From a virus, in IMG/VR virus record IMGVR_UViG_3300041409_001222, positions 1 to 22,011 of that record: DNA of 22,011 nucleotides, one strand, 5' to 3'. The notes under the pieces were generated by a model, which was not told the DNA's origin, searched no databases, and saw only the letters and a program-made list of their open reading frames with translations. Shown here in pieces: positions 10,655 to 21,266 of this stretch. Every line of letters begins with the position of its first letter. The first letter of the stretch is position 1. A program made the translations under genes and the position numbers.

Positions 10655-11539
10655 TCAAGCTGATAATGGCACTGAAACCCCTTTAAGAGTGTCAGGTACT
10701 GAAATTTTTGGGGAAAAAATCATGACTTCTTCTCCGGATTTTTTTTGTTGCGCAGTATATTGTAAGGAATATTCAACTCGCGGAAAATTGCTATAGATAT
10801 TCTTGATTTCTTCTGCATTGTCGTAAGAAACAAGCCAATTCGGGAAGTTTATTTCCTCAAGTTTCTTCATGACGAGCACATGATCATCGTGATCATAAAA
10901 ATTACGATACAACCCTTGACCTTTAACATAATAGGGAGGGTCTAAATATAAAAGAATTTTATTTTTATCGGCCTTTCCAAGGCTATCCATGAAATTCAAA
11001 CCCTCAAGGAAATCTATCGCATCCAAATTAGTAACAACAATTCTCTGATTATAATTTGCTATACTTTCGATTCTTGTTATTAAATCTTCACGATTAAAGC
11101 GCACATCCATCTTCCATTTCCCATCTTGCGCTTTTCCACCTATCACTCCTGCTTTTAAAATACCAGAACGATTAGTCCTATTTAAGAAGAATGCAGAAAA
11201 ACCAACTTCAAGTTTTGAGAACTCTGAAGGATTAGAAATAACATGACGATGAAAGCACCATTCTTCCATATTAATTTTGGCTGTGCTAATCAGCTTGCAA
11301 AGATTTTCAGTATCATCAACCACTGATGACCAAAAAGAATAGACCGCAAAGTCAGCATCATTAATATAAATCTTACGAACATATTCTTCTAATAACAATT
11401 CTAAGGCTACCCCTGCACCTCCAGCATATGGTTCAGCATAAGCTCCATCGTTTAACCGATTTTGCTCAATGACATCTTTTAAAAAATAAGATAACTTTCC
11501 TTTTCCGCCGGGATATCTTAGTGGGGTATAAAATTTCAT
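10655..11539 (-). CDS. D12-class N6-adenine DNA methyltransferase (294 aa)
   Basis: Transfers a methyl group from AdoMet to adenine N6. The order of motifs is that of the D12/Dam class: YPGGKGKL (9-16), the AdoMet motif AEPYAGGAG (35-43), FFLNRTNRSGI (117-127) and the catalytic DPPY (D200-Y203). The sequence is clearly different from the prophage's second Dam-like enzyme (16419-17219), so its target site may differ. The ATG at 11539 has AGAGG about seven bases upstream. It follows the ParB-like gene on the same strand after 69 nt that contain a perfect inverted repeat. No restriction-endonuclease gene is visible beside it. It is AT-rich and occupies the cos-A interval, where P2 has tin and old; it could protect self DNA in a defence system or modify phage DNA against host restriction. 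Confidence 0.9.
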   Translation of the reverse strand: MKFYTPLRYPGGKGKLSYFLKDVIEQNRLNDGAYAEPYAGGAGVALELLLEEYVRKIYINDADFAVYSFWSSVVDDTENLCKLISTAKINMEEWCFHRHVISNPSEFSKLEVGFSAFFLNRTNRSGILKAGVIGGKAQDGKWKMDVRFNREDLITRIESIANYNQRIVVTNLDAIDFLEGLNFMDSLGKADKNKILLYLDPPYYVKGQGLYRNFYDHDDHVLVMKKLEEINFPNWLVSYDNAEEIKNIYSNFPRVEYSLQYTAQQKKSGEEVMIFSPKISVPDTLKGVSVPLSA

Positions 11540-14031: not shown

Positions 14032-16419
14032 TCAGATCCATTGACGCCACTTATCGTCTTCCTGCAGCCGCCCGTTCCGGTAAAAAATTCTCATCCCCGC
14101 GCCAGAACTGATACTGCCACCGGCCAGAAGCAGGTTTGTTTCATTCTCTTGACCGGTAAAACCTCTCGCTAGCAACTCTGCAACCAGAAGCGCCCGCTGA
14201 TCGTCATCAATTTGCTGCTTGTAACCCTTTTTCTGACGCGGTTTCACTACCCGGAGACGCGCCAGCAGATCCCGGCGCTGTTTTCTGGTCATATTGTCGA
14301 AATCTCCCGGACCATAAAGAGGCGTTTCACCCGGTTCTATAGGTTCAACAGATACCGGTTTGCCCCCTGAAATGTTCAGTTTTTCATCAAGGGGACAGTT
14401 ATTGCCACGAGTCCAAGGGGCGCTAGCGCCCTGGTCGGCTGTCGCCTCCTGGTCGGCTGTCGCCTCCTGAACGTCAACGGCCTTACGGACCATCTTCCAC
14501 TTTGTTGCGTGCGTGCAGATACGGCCCGCCACTAACGGGGACCAGATGCCATAAATGCGGGTGCCGTGATCGCCGTAAGGGGTAGGCTCGTCGTTAAGCT
14601 CGTAAGCCGTCCTGACGATGTGATGTTTGCGCGGAACCAGTACGCCGCCCTGTTTCATGATGTAGGTGGCAAAGCAGCCCACATCTGCAGCGGCCAGCAC
14701 GGCGTCCAGCTGAGCGTTTTCAAGCACCGGCGCACCTGCTTTTTTATCGCTCTGATTTCTCAGCGCCTGACCGGCAAGCAGACGCAGTTCCCGGTAAGCC
14801 TGGCGGCCCGGAATACCAAAGAAGCGGAACTGCTGAACGCGATGAAGTGACGCCCACGCGCCTACGTTCTCCGCGCTGTCACGCAGGGATTTTCCGGTTT
14901 CGTTGCTGATTTCATCGGACAGGCCACGGGCATCAATATTTTTACTCACGTACTTAGCGATATAACTGGTCGGTGAACCTTTGCGCGGGTTGATGAGTTC
15001 AGCTTTAAAGCGTGGCCCGGTATTGTTGCCAAGCTCTTCGCGGTCTTCGCGAATGGCAAATTTCCGCAGCAGTGCGGTAACTGAACGGCGCTCTTTTTTG
15101 CGCATGAAGCACAGCAGGTGCCAGTGTACGGTGCCATCATGATGCGGCTCCGCAACCCGCACGCCATACCAGCGCATCCCGCCTTTATGCATGGCCTTAC
15201 GGAAAGCAGCAAAGGTATCGACCAGATAATCACTGCTCTGGCGAACGGTGGCCGTGGTCCACTTCGGATTCGGCCTGCCGTTGTTAAGCGTTGCGTGGAA
15301 ACGTGACGGGCAGGTGATAGTGTAAAACACGGCGCAGTCGCCGCGCATTTTCGCGATAAGCTCCAGCCCTTTAACACAGGCCATCATTTCATTGCGGCGA
15401 TGTGCCGGGTTGCTGTTACTGGCATTTACCACGTCTTCCATATCCAGCGTATCGCCTTCATTACTGATCAGCTCATGTGAGCGGAAGAACTCCAGAGACT
15501 TCCTGCGCTGCTCACGCTTATGGATCACCGCCTCATAGCTGACGTAGGGGGACGCTTTTTTGTTGACCAGGCAGACAGCACGCAGCTGCTCTTCACGCCA
15601 TTCACAACGCAGCTGCCACAGCTTGCGATACCACCAGTCCGCGCAGAGCATACGGGCCAGCGAGGGCGGGATCAGATCATAGGGTACGGGCTTGCGACGG
15701 CGCTTTTTGCGGCGCAGGCGCTCAAAGGCCGGGGGGATTACGTCCAGGCGCATCGCTTCCGCTGCAACCAGTTCCCATGCCTGGCGGACCTGCTCCGGCG
15801 TCACGTCATCACTGACGAACAGATGGCCGCTGGCCTTATCCAGACACATGCTCATGTGCGCAGCGACCAGCGTAGATAAACGCTTGACCTGATTCTGGTT
15901 CATTTCAGGCAACGCCAGCAGGCCGTCCAGCCCGTCATGACCGGCCATAAAACGGAATGAGGCTGAAATCTGGCTTTCGCGCACGCGGGCTAGCCTCTCA
16001 AGGCAGGGGCGAATAGTTTCGCGCAGGTAGCGGGAATAAGCCTGCGGCCTGCCGAGATTGTGGAAAAACTTAACGCGCTCCATGAGTGGCTTGCTGATGT
16101 GCGAAGGCTGGGCGCTAACATCGGCCACGATGACTAGATCGGGATTGTGTTGCTGCTGTTCGCGGGCCATCTTTGCCCGGCTGATAATTCTGTCCTGCAC
16201 AATTTCACGCTGGACGGGATCGCGGGACTCGTTGAAAAAATAGCGCTCCCAAACCTCATCACTCAAAGCCTCACGGCGCAGCTGTTCCTGCTTGTTATCC
16301 GCTGCATAGAGAGTGATTAGGTTTGAAAGCGCGGACACCGGCGTAACTTCCGCCGGGTCCAGCTTTGGATTGATTGCCTTTTTAGGGGCATTCCATGGGT
16401 ATGCGTAAACCTGAGTCAT
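14032..16419 (-). CDS. A: Replication initiation endonuclease A (HUH superfamily)
   Basis: 795 aa (P2 gpA 761 aa). It nicks one strand at the phage origin and starts rolling-circle replication, covalently joined through tyrosine. The HUH motif is VHWH (H432, H434), motif 1 is [11 protein letters not shown] (365-375), and the twin catalytic tyrosines are in [10 protein letters not shown] (Y486 and Y490), the same YxxxY spacing as P2 Y450/Y454. A basic patch RRKKRRRKP lies near residue 236-244. In P2 the origin lies inside A; I cannot place it here. A stretch near residue 665 carries a six-residue tandem repeat (EATADQ twice). The ATG overlaps the dam stop by one base (TAATG). It is the last gene of the cox-to-A early operon. 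Confidence 0.95.
14418..14466. repeat. Palindrome and 18-bp tandem repeat inside A
   Basis: A perfect 14-bp palindrome GGGCGCTAGCGCCC (14418-14431) is followed at once by two exact tandem copies of CTGGTCGGCTGTCGCCTC (14431-14448 and 14449-14466). The repeat is in frame and encodes the doubled ATADQE motif of the A protein. It sits in the weakly conserved C-terminal region. Confidence 0.85.
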
Positions 16420-17219
16420 TAAACCGCCAGACTCATGTGCCGCACTGCGATGATTTCTGATGCGCGCTTGCCTTCACCTGCAGCCACGCCAACAGAGCGG
16501 GCAGCAGTGACTTTTATCAGGTCAAATTCGCGGAAGATACTGCGGGTAAACAGTGTGTCGCTGTTAGAAACGATCACCGGGTTACGATCAGAGATACCCA
16601 GCAGGATGCAGGCCAGCGAGTGCTGATCATCGTCGCTAAACCCATCGGTGTGATAAGCGGTAAAAGTGCCGTGATATGGCGGATCGCAGTAAACGACATC
16701 ACCGGCACGGACCATGTTCAGGGTTTCGCTGTACCCCAGACATTCAAACGTCGTGCGCTGAGCCTTCGCGGCAAACGCTTCGATTTCGACCAGCGGGAAA
16801 TATGGCTCTTTATAATTGCCGTAGGGATTATTGAATTCACCGCGTTTGTTATAACGGCAAAGACCACGGTAGCCGTGGCGGTTCAGGTAGAGGAATTGCG
16901 CAGCGCGTTCCAGCAGTGGCAGTGCCGCGTTGAAGTTAAAGTCTTCGCGGACCTGATAATAACTCTCTTCCGTTTTGTTCTGATTAAAGAGCGATAACGC
17001 CACGACAATAAACGGGCGCGTATGCTCTTTAACCTGACGATAGAGGTTGATCAGATCGGGATTAACATCCGCCACCAGATAGGCCGGGTAATCCGTATTC
17101 ATCATGACCGCACATGAACCGGCAAACGGCTCAACCAGACGATCACCGGCGGGCAGGTGCTTAATCAGTTCAGACATCAGGCCGGACTTGCTGCCAGCCC
17201 ATTTAAGGATGGTTTTCAT
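16419..17219 (-). CDS. dam: Dam-type DNA adenine methyltransferase (266 aa)
   Basis: A Dam-family enzyme, expected to methylate adenine in GATC. Motifs in order: KWAGSKSGL (6-14), the AdoMet motif [10 protein letters not shown] (30-39), [12 protein letters not shown] (109-120) typical of Dam, and the catalytic DPPY (D179-Y182). It overlaps the upstream zinc-finger gene by four bases (ATGA) and the A start by one base, so it is translated as part of the early operon. Several Fels-2-like P2 relatives carry dam just before A; it may protect incoming or replicating phage DNA, or affect the timing of replication. It is separate in sequence and codon use from the second methyltransferase at 10655-11539. 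Confidence 0.94.
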
Positions 17220-18233: not shown

Positions 18234-18743
18234 TCACACCATCCCGATAGATGCACCGATACCACTTAACACATCAGCAGTACCCGACAGCGCAGGATTA
18301 GAGTGGACGCGAGTCTGGACCGCGAGGGCCGCCAGCATCATGCAGCGAATGCCGGTATTAGCAGCTTCAACGATCCCGCGACGGCATGAGGTGGTAATGC
18401 TGGCGTGATTAGCAGCACTGGCAGCAAGCGTCCCGACTTGAGCGGAAGCATTGAGCACGTAAGCCGGAAATTTTTCAGCGGCATGTTCATTGACAGGAAC
18501 ACACGGCAGACAGTGCAGCTGCGCCAGCATCCCATCCATCAGCGTTGCGTCCTCGGTCAGATCAGTAAGCAGCAGCACTTCAGGAACGGTCAGCTGATGC
18601 ACCTGATCAGGATTGAGTTTGTTACGAAGAGTCTGCACTTTCATGCCCGATTGCTGCGCCAGCTTCACCATATTGTGGGACAGCGCAAACTTGCGGCAGG
18701 CGTCGTCATAGTGGCTATGGGTGGAAGTCTTAAAATCAAACAT
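18234..18743 (-). CDS. CII-family transcriptional regulator
   Basis: 169 aa of the 186-type phage CII family (not lambda CII). The N-terminal half holds a helix-turn-helix: HNMVKLAQQSGMKVQTLRNK (about residues 23-42), then DQVHQLTVPEVLLLTDLTED and the conserved LHCLPCVPVNE. In 186 CII activates establishment transcription of the repressor. The ATG at 18743 (MFDFKTS) has AGGA six bases upstream; earlier starts (18749, 18761) place residues before the usual family start. It follows cox after 35 nt that contain a perfect inverted repeat. Confidence 0.9.
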   Translation of the reverse strand: MFDFKTSTHSHYDDACRKFALSHNMVKLAQQSGMKVQTLRNKLNPDQVHQLTVPEVLLLTDLTEDATLMDGMLAQLHCLPCVPVNEHAAEKFPAYVLNASAQVGTLAASAANHASITTSCRRGIVEAANTGIRCMMLAALAVQTRVHSNPALSGTADVLSGIGASIGMV

Positions 18744-18758
18744 GGTCATTCCTTTGCT

Positions 18759-18778
18759 CAACTTAAATAATTAAGTTG
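18759..18778. repeat. Inverted repeat between cox and cII
   Basis: A perfect dyad CAACTTAA-ATAA-TTAAGTTG lies directly after the cox stop and just before the cII Shine-Dalgarno sequence. It may be a regulatory protein site or an RNA hairpin that controls how much cII is made. Confidence 0.6.
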
Positions 18779-19003
18779 TTACGCAGCGACGTAGTGGCAA
18801 TTGACACCTTGAGCGAGCAAACGCGCGCGGAAGGCAACCATGTTGATGCGTGCGGCACCACCAACTTTTTTACGTGGCATAACAAGCAGATCACCGTCTT
18901 CAACCATCTGCTTCACAGTGCGAAGGCTGTAACCATAAGCCTGTGCGAACTGTTCATAAGTCATCAGATCGGGGCCGCTAGGTATTGTAATTTGATTGGT
19001 CAT
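18779..19003 (-). CDS. cox: Cox/Apl-like excisionase and regulator
   Basis: 74 aa with a winged-helix signature: LMTYEQFAQAYGYSLRTVKQMVEDGDLLVMPR then a basic VGGAARINM and RARLLAQG. (The first part is at residues 13-44.) P2 Cox and 186 Apl bind direct repeats, direct excision with integrase and repress the lysogenic promoter. As first gene of the leftward early operon and divergent from the repressor gene it is in the right place. GGAG lies ten bases before the ATG at 19003. Confidence 0.87.
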   Translation of the reverse strand: MTNQITIPSGPDLMTYEQFAQAYGYSLRTVKQMVEDGDLLVMPRKKVGGAARINMVAFRARLLAQGVNCHYVAA

Positions 19004-19125
19004 CGGGGATTATCTCCAGTTGGCAGTATTTACGGTGCATTGGCGTGCATTTTCACTAACGAAGTGGATGATATATTCCAAATGGGTTTGTGTAAACAGA
19101 TCATATTGGATTATTTGAAGGTTAT
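19004..19125. promoter_or_regulatory. Lysis/lysogeny control region with early promoter
   Basis: A leftward early promoter is clear: TTTACA (19091-19096) and TATCAT (19068-19073) with 17-base spacing, start near 19061. Candidate repressor or Cox sites around it are: CCAAATGG (19078-19085) inside the spacer and CCAGTTGG (19016-19023) 62 bases away; a direct repeat GTGCATT at 19035-19041 and 19045-19051, exactly one helical turn apart; and an imperfect dyad CACT-N5-AGTG (19054-19066). A rightward promoter for the repressor is less obvious. Confidence 0.6.
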
Positions 19126-19977
19126 ATGACCGATTACAACAGCGATGTTAAGGCCATACTGGAGAGAATCCTTAAATCTTATGGGGTTAGCTCACGCCCA
19201 GAGCTCGCGGAACTTTTGAAAATTCCGTTACCTACTATCCAAAATTGGGTGGCTCGCCAGAGTTTACCCGGCGATTACATAGTTCAATGCGCATTGGATA
19301 CAGGAGTAAGCCTTAGATGGCTGGTTAATGGTGAACTTGCAAATGTAAGTTCAGATGGGGCAAAGCATCCCTCTCTTAAAGGGAAGAAGCTTCATGACAC
19401 TATGCTAGCTAATGGCGGGCGGGCAGTGCTGGATCGCATAATGCACGCATATGGCTTTACTATGCAGAAGCAACTCGGTGACTTGCTTGATATTCCTTCA
19501 GCGACGATGAGCGCATGGGTTCGCAGAGATTATTTTCCAGGTGATGTTGTCATTACATGCGCACTTGATACGGGGGTTTCTCTTTCTTGGTTAGCTACTG
19601 GCCATGAGGATGAGGCACTTCCCCCGAGAGATTTAGCTGATCAGCTGATACCATCCATACCTGCACGAAAACTCTCCGGAGGCACATTAGAGAATCAGGC
19701 TGATGTGAGTTTTAATCTTTCTCTTTTTGGCTTTGATTTAACTAACCCCCTCTATATTCAACGCGGCTCGATGTCATGGATCGTGGAAGGGGAGGCCCAG
19801 ACCATTGGTAATGGTGATTGGCTATTAGATATTGATGGAAATAAAGATATTTATACCGTGTCACGCCTTCCGGGTAATAGGATCAAAGTTACTAACAATT
19901 CATCTTCATTTGAATGTTCAGAAAGTGATGTAAATCCTATTGGCTTCGTAATGCTGACAATATCCAAAAATTTATAG
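19126..19977 (+). CDS. CI-like repressor with two tandem DNA-binding domains (283 aa)
   Basis: Maintains lysogeny by repressing the early promoter. Residues 10-70 and 100-160 are two copies of the 186-type CI N-terminal domain, offset by exactly 90 residues and about half identical by eye: both have AxLxRI...YG, LLxIP, WVxR, PGD and CALDTGVSL-W. After a linker (161-195), residues ~196-283 form the usual beta-rich C-terminal oligomerisation domain (GFDLTNPLYIQRGSMSWIVE, NGDWLLD, NPIGFVMLTIS). The normal family length is about 190 aa with one DNA-binding domain, so the extra ~90 residues are an internal duplication. There is no S24 peptidase motif, so induction should be by antirepressor, not RecA cleavage, which fits the LexA-controlled small genes. 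AAGG lies six bases before the ATG. Confidence 0.93.
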   Translation: MTDYNSDVKAILERILKSYGVSSRPELAELLKIPLPTIQNWVARQSLPGDYIVQCALDTGVSLRWLVNGELANVSSDGAKHPSLKGKKLHDTMLANGGRAVLDRIMHAYGFTMQKQLGDLLDIPSATMSAWVRRDYFPGDVVITCALDTGVSLSWLATGHEDEALPPRDLADQLIPSIPARKLSGGTLENQADVSFNLSLFGFDLTNPLYIQRGSMSWIVEGEAQTIGNGDWLLDIDGNKDIYTVSRLPGNRIKVTNNSSSFECSESDVNPIGFVMLTISKNL

Positions 19978-19984
19978 GGAAATT

Positions 19985-20233
19985 ATGGCTGAGTTAATTT
20001 TATTAATAATAGCGACAGTGAGCGGTATTATTTCAGCTCATATTAATTGTAAAGCAAACAGCATCAGAGGTTTTAAAGCTTTTATGAGCCTATGCCTTGG
20101 TGGGGCAGTGCTGGGCACAATAATGCTTTTTAGTTTCTTAGCTCCTATGTGGGTTTCATATTCAATAGCGGCTGTATGTATTGCCATCCTAATCAATAAT
20201 ATATCTAAATTTAAAGAATCTTTGGTTAGATAA
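19985..20233 (+). CDS. Small membrane protein between repressor and integrase (82 aa)
   Basis: Three predicted membrane segments (about residues 3-19, 32-52, 55-72) with short loops and a basic C-terminus (SKFKESLVR). AGGGAAATT just before the ATG is a good Shine-Dalgarno sequence. It starts 8 nt after the repressor stop and ends 1 nt before the integrase start, so the three genes look like one lysogenic transcript. P2 and 186 have nothing at this position. Expression with the repressor makes superinfection exclusion or another lysogen phenotype plausible, but I recognise no family. Confidence 0.72.
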   Translation: MAELILLIIATVSGIISAHINCKANSIRGFKAFMSLCLGGAVLGTIMLFSFLAPMWVSYSIAAVCIAILINNISKFKESLVR

Positions 20234-20234
20234 T

Positions 20235-21266
20235 ATGTCCATTAAAAAACTGTCATCTGGCGAATGGCTTGCTGATTTTTATTTAGATGGGCGCGGCAGT
20301 CGACGTGTTAGGAAAAGCTTTGCGACAAAAGGTGAAGCGGTAGCTTTTGAAGATTACACGCGCGCTGAGGCCGGAAACAAACCGTGGATAAAAGAGAAGG
20401 AGGATCGCCGCAAGCTTAGTGAGCTGATAAATCTCTGGGATTCTCTACATGGGCAGTCGCTCAAGGCCGTCAAATCTCGTAAGGCAAAATTAGATATTGT
20501 GTGTGCCGGATTAGGTGATCCGATAGCCTCTCAATTGACGGCAAAAGATTGGGCGCATTATCGTGACCAGCGCTTGAAGGGTAAAATTTCTAATGGCTAT
20601 CACGACGATAAATCAAAGTGGAAAGTAAAGCCTATTACTGTCAACAGAGAGCAAAACTATCTTGCCGCTGTTTTCAATGAACTGAAGCGATTAGGGGAAT
20701 GGACTTTACCTAACCCACTGGAAGGTGTCAGGACGTTCCGGGAAGACGAAAAGGAAATGTCCTGGCTTACCTTAAGGCAGATCACAGAACTTCTGAATGG
20801 CTGCGAGCTTTACGGAAAGCCAGACTTAAAGATGATATGCAAAGTTTGCCTGGCTACTGGTGCGCGCTGGACTGAAGCGGAAACCTTGACCCGTTCACAG
20901 CTATCGCCTAATAAACTTTCATTCTTTAAAACTAAAGGCGGTAAAAACAGAACGGTTCCTATCCAGGCATGGCTTTATGACGAGCTAAAGGAACGGCAGG
21001 GCAGGATGTTTAAGCCATGCTATCAGGACTTCAAGAAGATGCTGGCTACTACTACTATCCAGCTTATAGAAGGTCAGAAGACTCATGTGCTACGGCACAC
21101 TTTTGCCAGCCATTTTATGATGAACGGTGGCAACATTCTGGTGCTTCAAAGAATACTCGGTCACGCTAACATCCGTGAAACCATGAAGTATGCTCATTTT
21201 GCTCCAGACCATTTAGAAGAAGCGGCGGCGCTTAATCCTCTGACAAGTTTGATGTCCACAAATTGA
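20235..21266 (+). CDS. int: Tyrosine-recombinase integrase
   Basis: 343 aa (P2 Int 337 aa). It integrates and, with Cox, excises the prophage. The N-terminus (VRKSFATKGEAVAFEDYTR) is the arm-binding region, followed by a core-binding domain (~60-160) and the catalytic domain with R211 (ATGARWTE), H284-x2-R287 (HVLRH), H310 (LGHANI) and nucleophile Y319 (MKYAHF). The ATG is one base after the membrane-protein stop and has no strong Shine-Dalgarno sequence, so translation is probably coupled. The attachment site should lie just downstream. Confidence 0.96.
   Translation: MSIKKLSSGEWLADFYLDGRGSRRVRKSFATKGEAVAFEDYTRAEAGNKPWIKEKEDRRKLSELINLWDSLHGQSLKAVKSRKAKLDIVCAGLGDPIASQLTAKDWAHYRDQRLKGKISNGYHDDKSKWKVKPITVNREQNYLAAVFNELKRLGEWTLPNPLEGVRTFREDEKEMSWLTLRQITELLNGCELYGKPDLKMICKVCLATGARWTEAETLTRSQLSPNKLSFFKTKGGKNRTVPIQAWLYDELKERQGRMFKPCYQDFKKMLATTTIQLIEGQKTHVLRHTFASHFMMNGGNILVLQRILGHANIRETMKYAHFAPDHLEEAAALNPLTSLMSTN

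Follow-up and report, generated by a model that had tools for sequence, protein, structure and literature searches.

A P2/186-like prophage repressor with two DNA-binding heads per subunit and apparently separate operators

The cI gene of the window (the whole 22,011-nucleotide stretch analysed here, positions 1 to 22,011 of IMG/VR record IMGVR_UViG_3300041409_001222) probably encodes the immunity repressor of a P2/186-like prophage, with two DNA-binding heads for each 186-type oligomerisation domain. Sequence comparisons, which took in ~65 relatives, support two head specificities, on separate palindromic operators. They indicate that the fast-changing first head (N1) reads the switch at the lytic promoter pR and sets immunity, and that the almost unchanging second head (N2) reads separate flanking sites, FL and FR. 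In the textbook phage one head does both jobs; here they are apparently divided between two.

Architecture and gene neighbourhood of the repressor

The cI open reading frame (19126-19977, + strand) starts with ATG and encodes a 283-residue protein that matches the transcriptional repressor family phrog_4. The initial annotation, made from the DNA sequence alone, had described two helix-turn-helix (HTH) domains of the 186 CI type, lying head to tail at a 90-residue offset and followed by a single oligomerisation domain, and this description was confirmed. A gap-free alignment pairs residues 9-72 with residues 99-162, exactly 90 positions further on; 30 of 64 residues are identical, and the local BLOSUM62 score of 171 compares with a mean of 27 for shuffled sequences (sd 4.5, maximum 51, n = 2000 shuffles; Z ~32). 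Both stretches matched PF07022 above the curated Pfam cut-off (together 159.5 bits against a cut-off of 22 bits), N1 being encoded at 19153-19335 (+ strand; recognition helix PLPTIQNWVARQ) and N2 at 19423-19611 (+ strand; recognition helix PSATMSAWVRRD). A single PF16452 domain, the C-terminal domain (CTD), follows at residues 177-275 (19654-19950, + strand; 71.3 bits against a Pfam cut-off of 27). Since only 98 of 192 bases are identical between the coding DNA of the two copies, the internal duplication is old. The recognition helices differ, as had also been noted at the outset: PLPTIQNW in N1 and PSATMSAW in N2.

The AlphaFold2 model, made with 59 relatives (mean pLDDT 82), gave the same arrangement when structure prediction, the check suggested for the initial reading, was carried out. 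It folds into two five-helix HTH domains (helices at 8-68 and 86-158) and one beta domain (177-280), connected by flexible, low-confidence linkers (72-81 and 164-174). The CTD matched that of 186 CI (2fkd) at Z 18.0, with 1.6 A over 110 residues, and N2 together with the CTD superposed on the entire 186 CI chain. The protein is thus like coliphage 186 CI (PDB 2FJR and 2FKD) in the PF07022 fold of its HTH domains, in its PF16452 CTD and in the gene order cII-apl-cI-int. However, 186 CI has one HTH per subunit; because the window protein has two, we set it apart as a two-headed variant and not as a standard member of the 186 type.

The first gene transcribed from pR encodes a 74-residue cox/apl-like excisionase-repressor (18779-19003, - strand; phrog_575, E 9e-19), and it is followed by a cII-like activator gene (18234-18749, - strand; PF06892, E 3e-45). 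On the other side, the integrase lies two genes downstream of cI (20235-21266, + strand; PF24624 and PF00589). The context cII-apl/cox-(pR)-cI-int matches the 186 type, with a small ORF added between cI and int, and the region around cI is the switch region of a P2/186-like prophage. The added ORF (19985-20233) encodes an 82-residue predicted membrane protein of no confident family; PSP3 has a DUF2511 gene at this place. Elsewhere in the window, two ORFs (10655-11539 and 16419-17219) resemble Dam-type adenine methyltransferases by eye.

The first head and the operator at pR

The pR promoter was assigned by our own consensus scoring, as a -35 box TTTACA (19091-19096, - strand) matching the consensus at fixed spacing and a -10 box TATCAT (19068-19073, - strand) separated by a 17-bp spacer. 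Two putative N1 operators accompany it: site 1, TATTCCAAATGGGTTT, lies in the spacer (19074-19089) and covaries with N1, and site 2, AGATCATATTGGATTA, lies on the cI side of the -35 box (19098-19113) and is the second-best N1-type site of the window. A possible site 0, CTAACGAAGTGGATGA (19056-19071), is weak in the window and clearer in the relatives L016 and L017. In most PSP3-type loci a GATC adjoins the -10 box inside the pR spacer.

In many relatives both halves of the palindromic pR sites are of the N1 type (ATCCATATGGAT, AATCGCAAATGCGATT, ACACGTAACGTGT), and particular N1 helices go with particular pR operators: PLPTIxNW with ATCCAwATGGAT, PANNISSW with AATCGCAAATGCGATT, PSNNVSAW with GATCACAAATGTGCTC and PTNTISNW with ACACGTAACGTGT. 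Such natural helix-operator pairs, of which the double-headed family supplies many, could serve for decoding HTH specificity. Across 16 loci the similarity of pR operators tracks that of N1 when N2 and the CTD are controlled (partial Mantel r 0.50, p 0.002), and across 54 loci the coefficient was 0.45 with the spacer site taken alone and 0.52 with the two sites together (p 0.001). Being related to one another, the loci do not supply independent events, either in these tests or in the site counts given below. For N2, given N1 and the CTD, the partial Mantel coefficient was just 0.03-0.08, and the contribution of the CTD was weak. A natural swap is seen in PSP3 and SW9, which are 100% identical through cox as far as the operator, after which operator and N1 diverge; their N2 recognition helices are identical despite the different N1. 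At pR, most loci give a low score for the N2-type motif. Two loci, L167 and L185, are exceptions that carry an N2-like site at pR, which counts against the split between heads.

The initial annotation had suggested that the two heads could read different half-sites. The part of this that stands is the presence of two heads with apparently different specificities; the half-sites of a single operator give way to what look like separate palindromic operators. A composite operator read by a covalent pseudo-dimer has a precedent in the solved immunity repressor of the cluster A mycobacteriophages (TipsytheTRex/L5; PMC9283540), which also has two DNA-binding domains per chain, and the linked heads of the window protein, with their differing recognition helices, would suit such a scheme. 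The mycobacteriophage protein differs in being a monomer with unlike domains, without a 186-type CTD, and in placing both domains on one asymmetric operator (PMC9283540), whereas the sites predicted in the window are palindromic and separate. We regard a composite operator as decidedly unlikely here: in many relatives pR carries near-perfect palindromes of a single type, which follow N1 alone, the N2 motif is separate, itself palindromic, and distant, and oligomerisation is already provided by the 186-type CTD. The authors of the mycobacteriophage study link the diversity of one domain of the cluster A repressor to immunity type (PMC9283540). Two HTH domains in one prophage-associated regulator are also described for Wolbachia Wmk (PMC12889037); there the HTHs are of the Cro/C1 type, from another family, and come with an accessory domain, and no Wmk operators are reported in the text consulted.

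The second head and the flanking sites

The candidate operator for N2 is a palindrome that in the window lies within cI itself, in the DNA encoding the linker between the two heads (FL, TGAACTTGCAAATGTAAGTTCA; 19332-19353). The score matrix behind it was trained on the sites of L054, on the pB sites of PSP3-type phages (pB being the promoter of the late activator gene ogr) and on one further pB from a phage with a single-headed CI. L054 encodes a single-headed repressor with an N2-like helix and carries AACTTGTATTTGCAAGTT at pR and the related ACTTGCATTTGCGAGC at pB. With this matrix FL is the top N2-type site of the window, at 19.9, where about 0.006 sites of that score are expected and the next best site in the 22 kb scores 8.1; against synonymous-codon recodings its P was 0.0014. 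A second palindrome, CAACTTAAATAATTAAGTTG, lies in the cII-cox gap (FR; 18759-18778). Since the matrix scores it at just 5.1, we propose this site from its palindrome and its position.

FL occurs at the equivalent position in relatives, and in most loci with a double head the matrix peaks at FL or FR. Among 49 held-out loci of ~7 kb each, FL was the top hit in 32 and within the top three in 45, the remaining four having no top-three FL, and the cII-cox region gave a top-three hit in 28. FL beat synonymous recodings (P<0.05) in 17 of 17 loci and in 41 of the 49 held-out ones, though part of its conservation is that of the amino acids, because FL is coding DNA. A matrix-free comparison agreed: 36 of 64 loci had the best additional match to their own FL in the cII-cox region, compared with 69 of 640 control 16-mers. 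FL and FR also change together (L175 and L183). No strong N2-type site was found inside the cI genes of single-headed phages, L054 included.

FR sits where cII meets cox, a region that in 186 holds pE and, nearby, a CII site, and the motif of FL, FR and pB might on that ground be attributed to CII or Cox, with N2 having some other target. This seems very improbable, given that the motif does not vary among three Cox types whose recognition helices differ, that it occurs inside cI and at pB, and that in L054 it stands at a pR controlled by CI. N2 might instead be a structural remnant of an ancestral head, kept for folding, oligomer geometry or contact with an antirepressor and making no specific DNA contacts. 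Its place next to the CTD is indeed that of the single head in 186, and it is the more conserved head, mean pairwise identity across class I being 75% for N2, 52% for N1 and 38% for the CTD. But the recognition helix is among the conserved parts of N2, and the motif used by the single-headed CI with an N2-like head turns up again in double-headed phages, at FL, FR and pB, so that we consider a purely structural N2 unlikely and prefer N2 as the reader of FL and FR.

Another candidate for the N2 site was GTGCANTGGNGTGCAT, an element 50 bp from the -35 box in the majority of A/B-type loci. It is unlikely to be the main one, as its similarity showed no dependence on N2 once N1 and the CTD were controlled; it looks like the direct-repeat sites of Cox/Apl. 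The window (19035-19050) and relatives carry GTGCATTGGCGTGCAT 50 bp from the pR -35 box, in most loci with A- or B-type Cox though the Cox recognition helices differ; these are probably Cox/Apl repeats.

At pB the division between heads varies. The N2-type motif lies over the pB -35 box in phages with differing N1 heads (PSP3, SW9, SEN1, Midge and RCIP0057), whereas in the clade of the window, where pB is known from relatives (L016, L017, L071) since that of the window's own phage lies outside the record, the site is of the N1 type (ATCCAGTTGGAT and the like). These N1-type sites rule out a general rule that N2 reads pB, and the split in which N1 takes pR and N2 everything else is thus not universal. 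This contrast between the clades was noted at the ogr promoters L090, L091, L093 and L098, which are those of the L016, L017, L021 and L071 prophages.

Coliphage 186 CI is a model looping repressor, a wheel of seven dimers that wraps and loops DNA. Its CTD has been described as a wheel-like 14-mer (PMC8053113), and according to the title of a 2002 paper by Shearwin, Dodd and Egan (cited in PMC10310618 and PMC3991615) the one HTH motif of 186 CI recognises two distinct sequences. In the 186 record (U32222) the annotated CI sites comprise FL, which lies inside cI, FR, which lies between apl and cII, three sites at pR and two at pB; FL, FR and pB share ATTCAC..GTGAAT-like sites, and pR is different. 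Like 186, the window has a predicted FL-type palindrome inside cI and an FR-type one in the cox-cII gap; unlike in 186, the two kinds of site are apparently shared out between two heads. A family that splits them in this way would be a natural experiment on the 186 puzzle of one HTH and two sites.

We propose that N1 would bind the palindromes at pR, one inside the spacer and one beside the -35 box, shutting off pR and setting the immunity type, and that N1 and the pR operator would change jointly between phages. N2 would bind the conserved ACTTGCAAATGCAAGT-type palindrome ~260-315 bp either side of pR, at FL in the linker DNA and at FR in the cII-cox gap, and in the PSP3 clade also pB. Drawn from the domains, the positions of the sites, their covariation and their conservation, this assignment of heads to sites, which we infer from sequence, is quite likely to be right. 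One oligomer could loop DNA, with N1 heads on pR and N2 heads on FL or FR; for the shape of the double-headed oligomer and its looping, 186 CI serves as analogy only. More tentatively, and at somewhat less than an even chance, we suggest a heterospecific wheel that holds pR through N1 and FL or FR through N2 simultaneously. Looping and immunity specificity would then be separately evolvable, immunity changing by exchange of an N1-plus-operator cassette with the N2-FL-FR-CTD frame kept fixed, and the linker DNA would double as the operator of the second head. That N1 and its operator can apparently be altered while the remainder of the switch stays intact suggests how immunity groups might arise rapidly, and binding for immunity and binding at the distal sites should be separable by mutating single domains.

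Distribution, origins and selection

PSP3 (CI: NC_005340, NP_958086), SEN1, SW9, SI22, Midge, RCIP0057 and 613R3 have the same double-headed architecture, with 44-47% identity over the whole protein. The window differs from the PSP3 group in its N1 and its pR operator, as its near relatives do at pB. A search for other such repressors, which the initial annotation had called for, found double-headed CI in each of 71 further IMG/VR relatives that were scanned, which between them carry 49 distinct N1 domains, and in several Enterobacterales prophages: in-frame double copies of this class occur in 7 of 395 Enterobacterales species genomes, two of the seven carrying two, and a distant double form occurs in two further genomes of that set (G028, G235). 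A contig search with a single-sequence query matched one locus. It had also been allowed from the start that the architecture might prove common and already described. Common it is in the databases, where the records, those of the PSP3 group included, annotate the protein merely as CI repressor; our literature searches, with most subscription papers outside their reach, found no paper describing a double-headed 186-type CI. The architecture is, as far as could be found, widespread yet undescribed.

Trees recovered a single clade for the class I N1 domains (100/100) and placed the N2 domains near one another, with the single-headed L054 protein inside the N2 clade. The double repressors of Klebsiella phages, with an offset of 105-108, were placed among single-headed Fels-2-like proteins, which gives the double head at least two origins. 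For these class II repressors (ST437-OXA245phi4.2, 4LV2017) no clear split of sites was found. The linker DNA of ST437-OXA245phi4.2 contains the palindrome GTCACAACAATTGTGAC. The independent double-headed CI repressors of Klebsiella phages with this offset of 105-108 include those of L026 and L080.

Relaxed selection on the second copy, which the initial annotation had named as evidence against its own reading, was not seen. In comparisons among close relatives dN/dS was ~0.01-0.06 in both heads; N1 and N2 are both under purifying selection and neither is decaying. In one metagenome contig (L022, 3001-3848) a double-headed cI has a frame break inside N2, which could be a sequencing error. Tandem runs of three to four separate, nearly overlapping small ORFs (~100-156 residues) occur in L059 (322-1836), L057 (1351-2529) and L066 (521-1821), each ORF encoding one CI-type HTH without a CTD.
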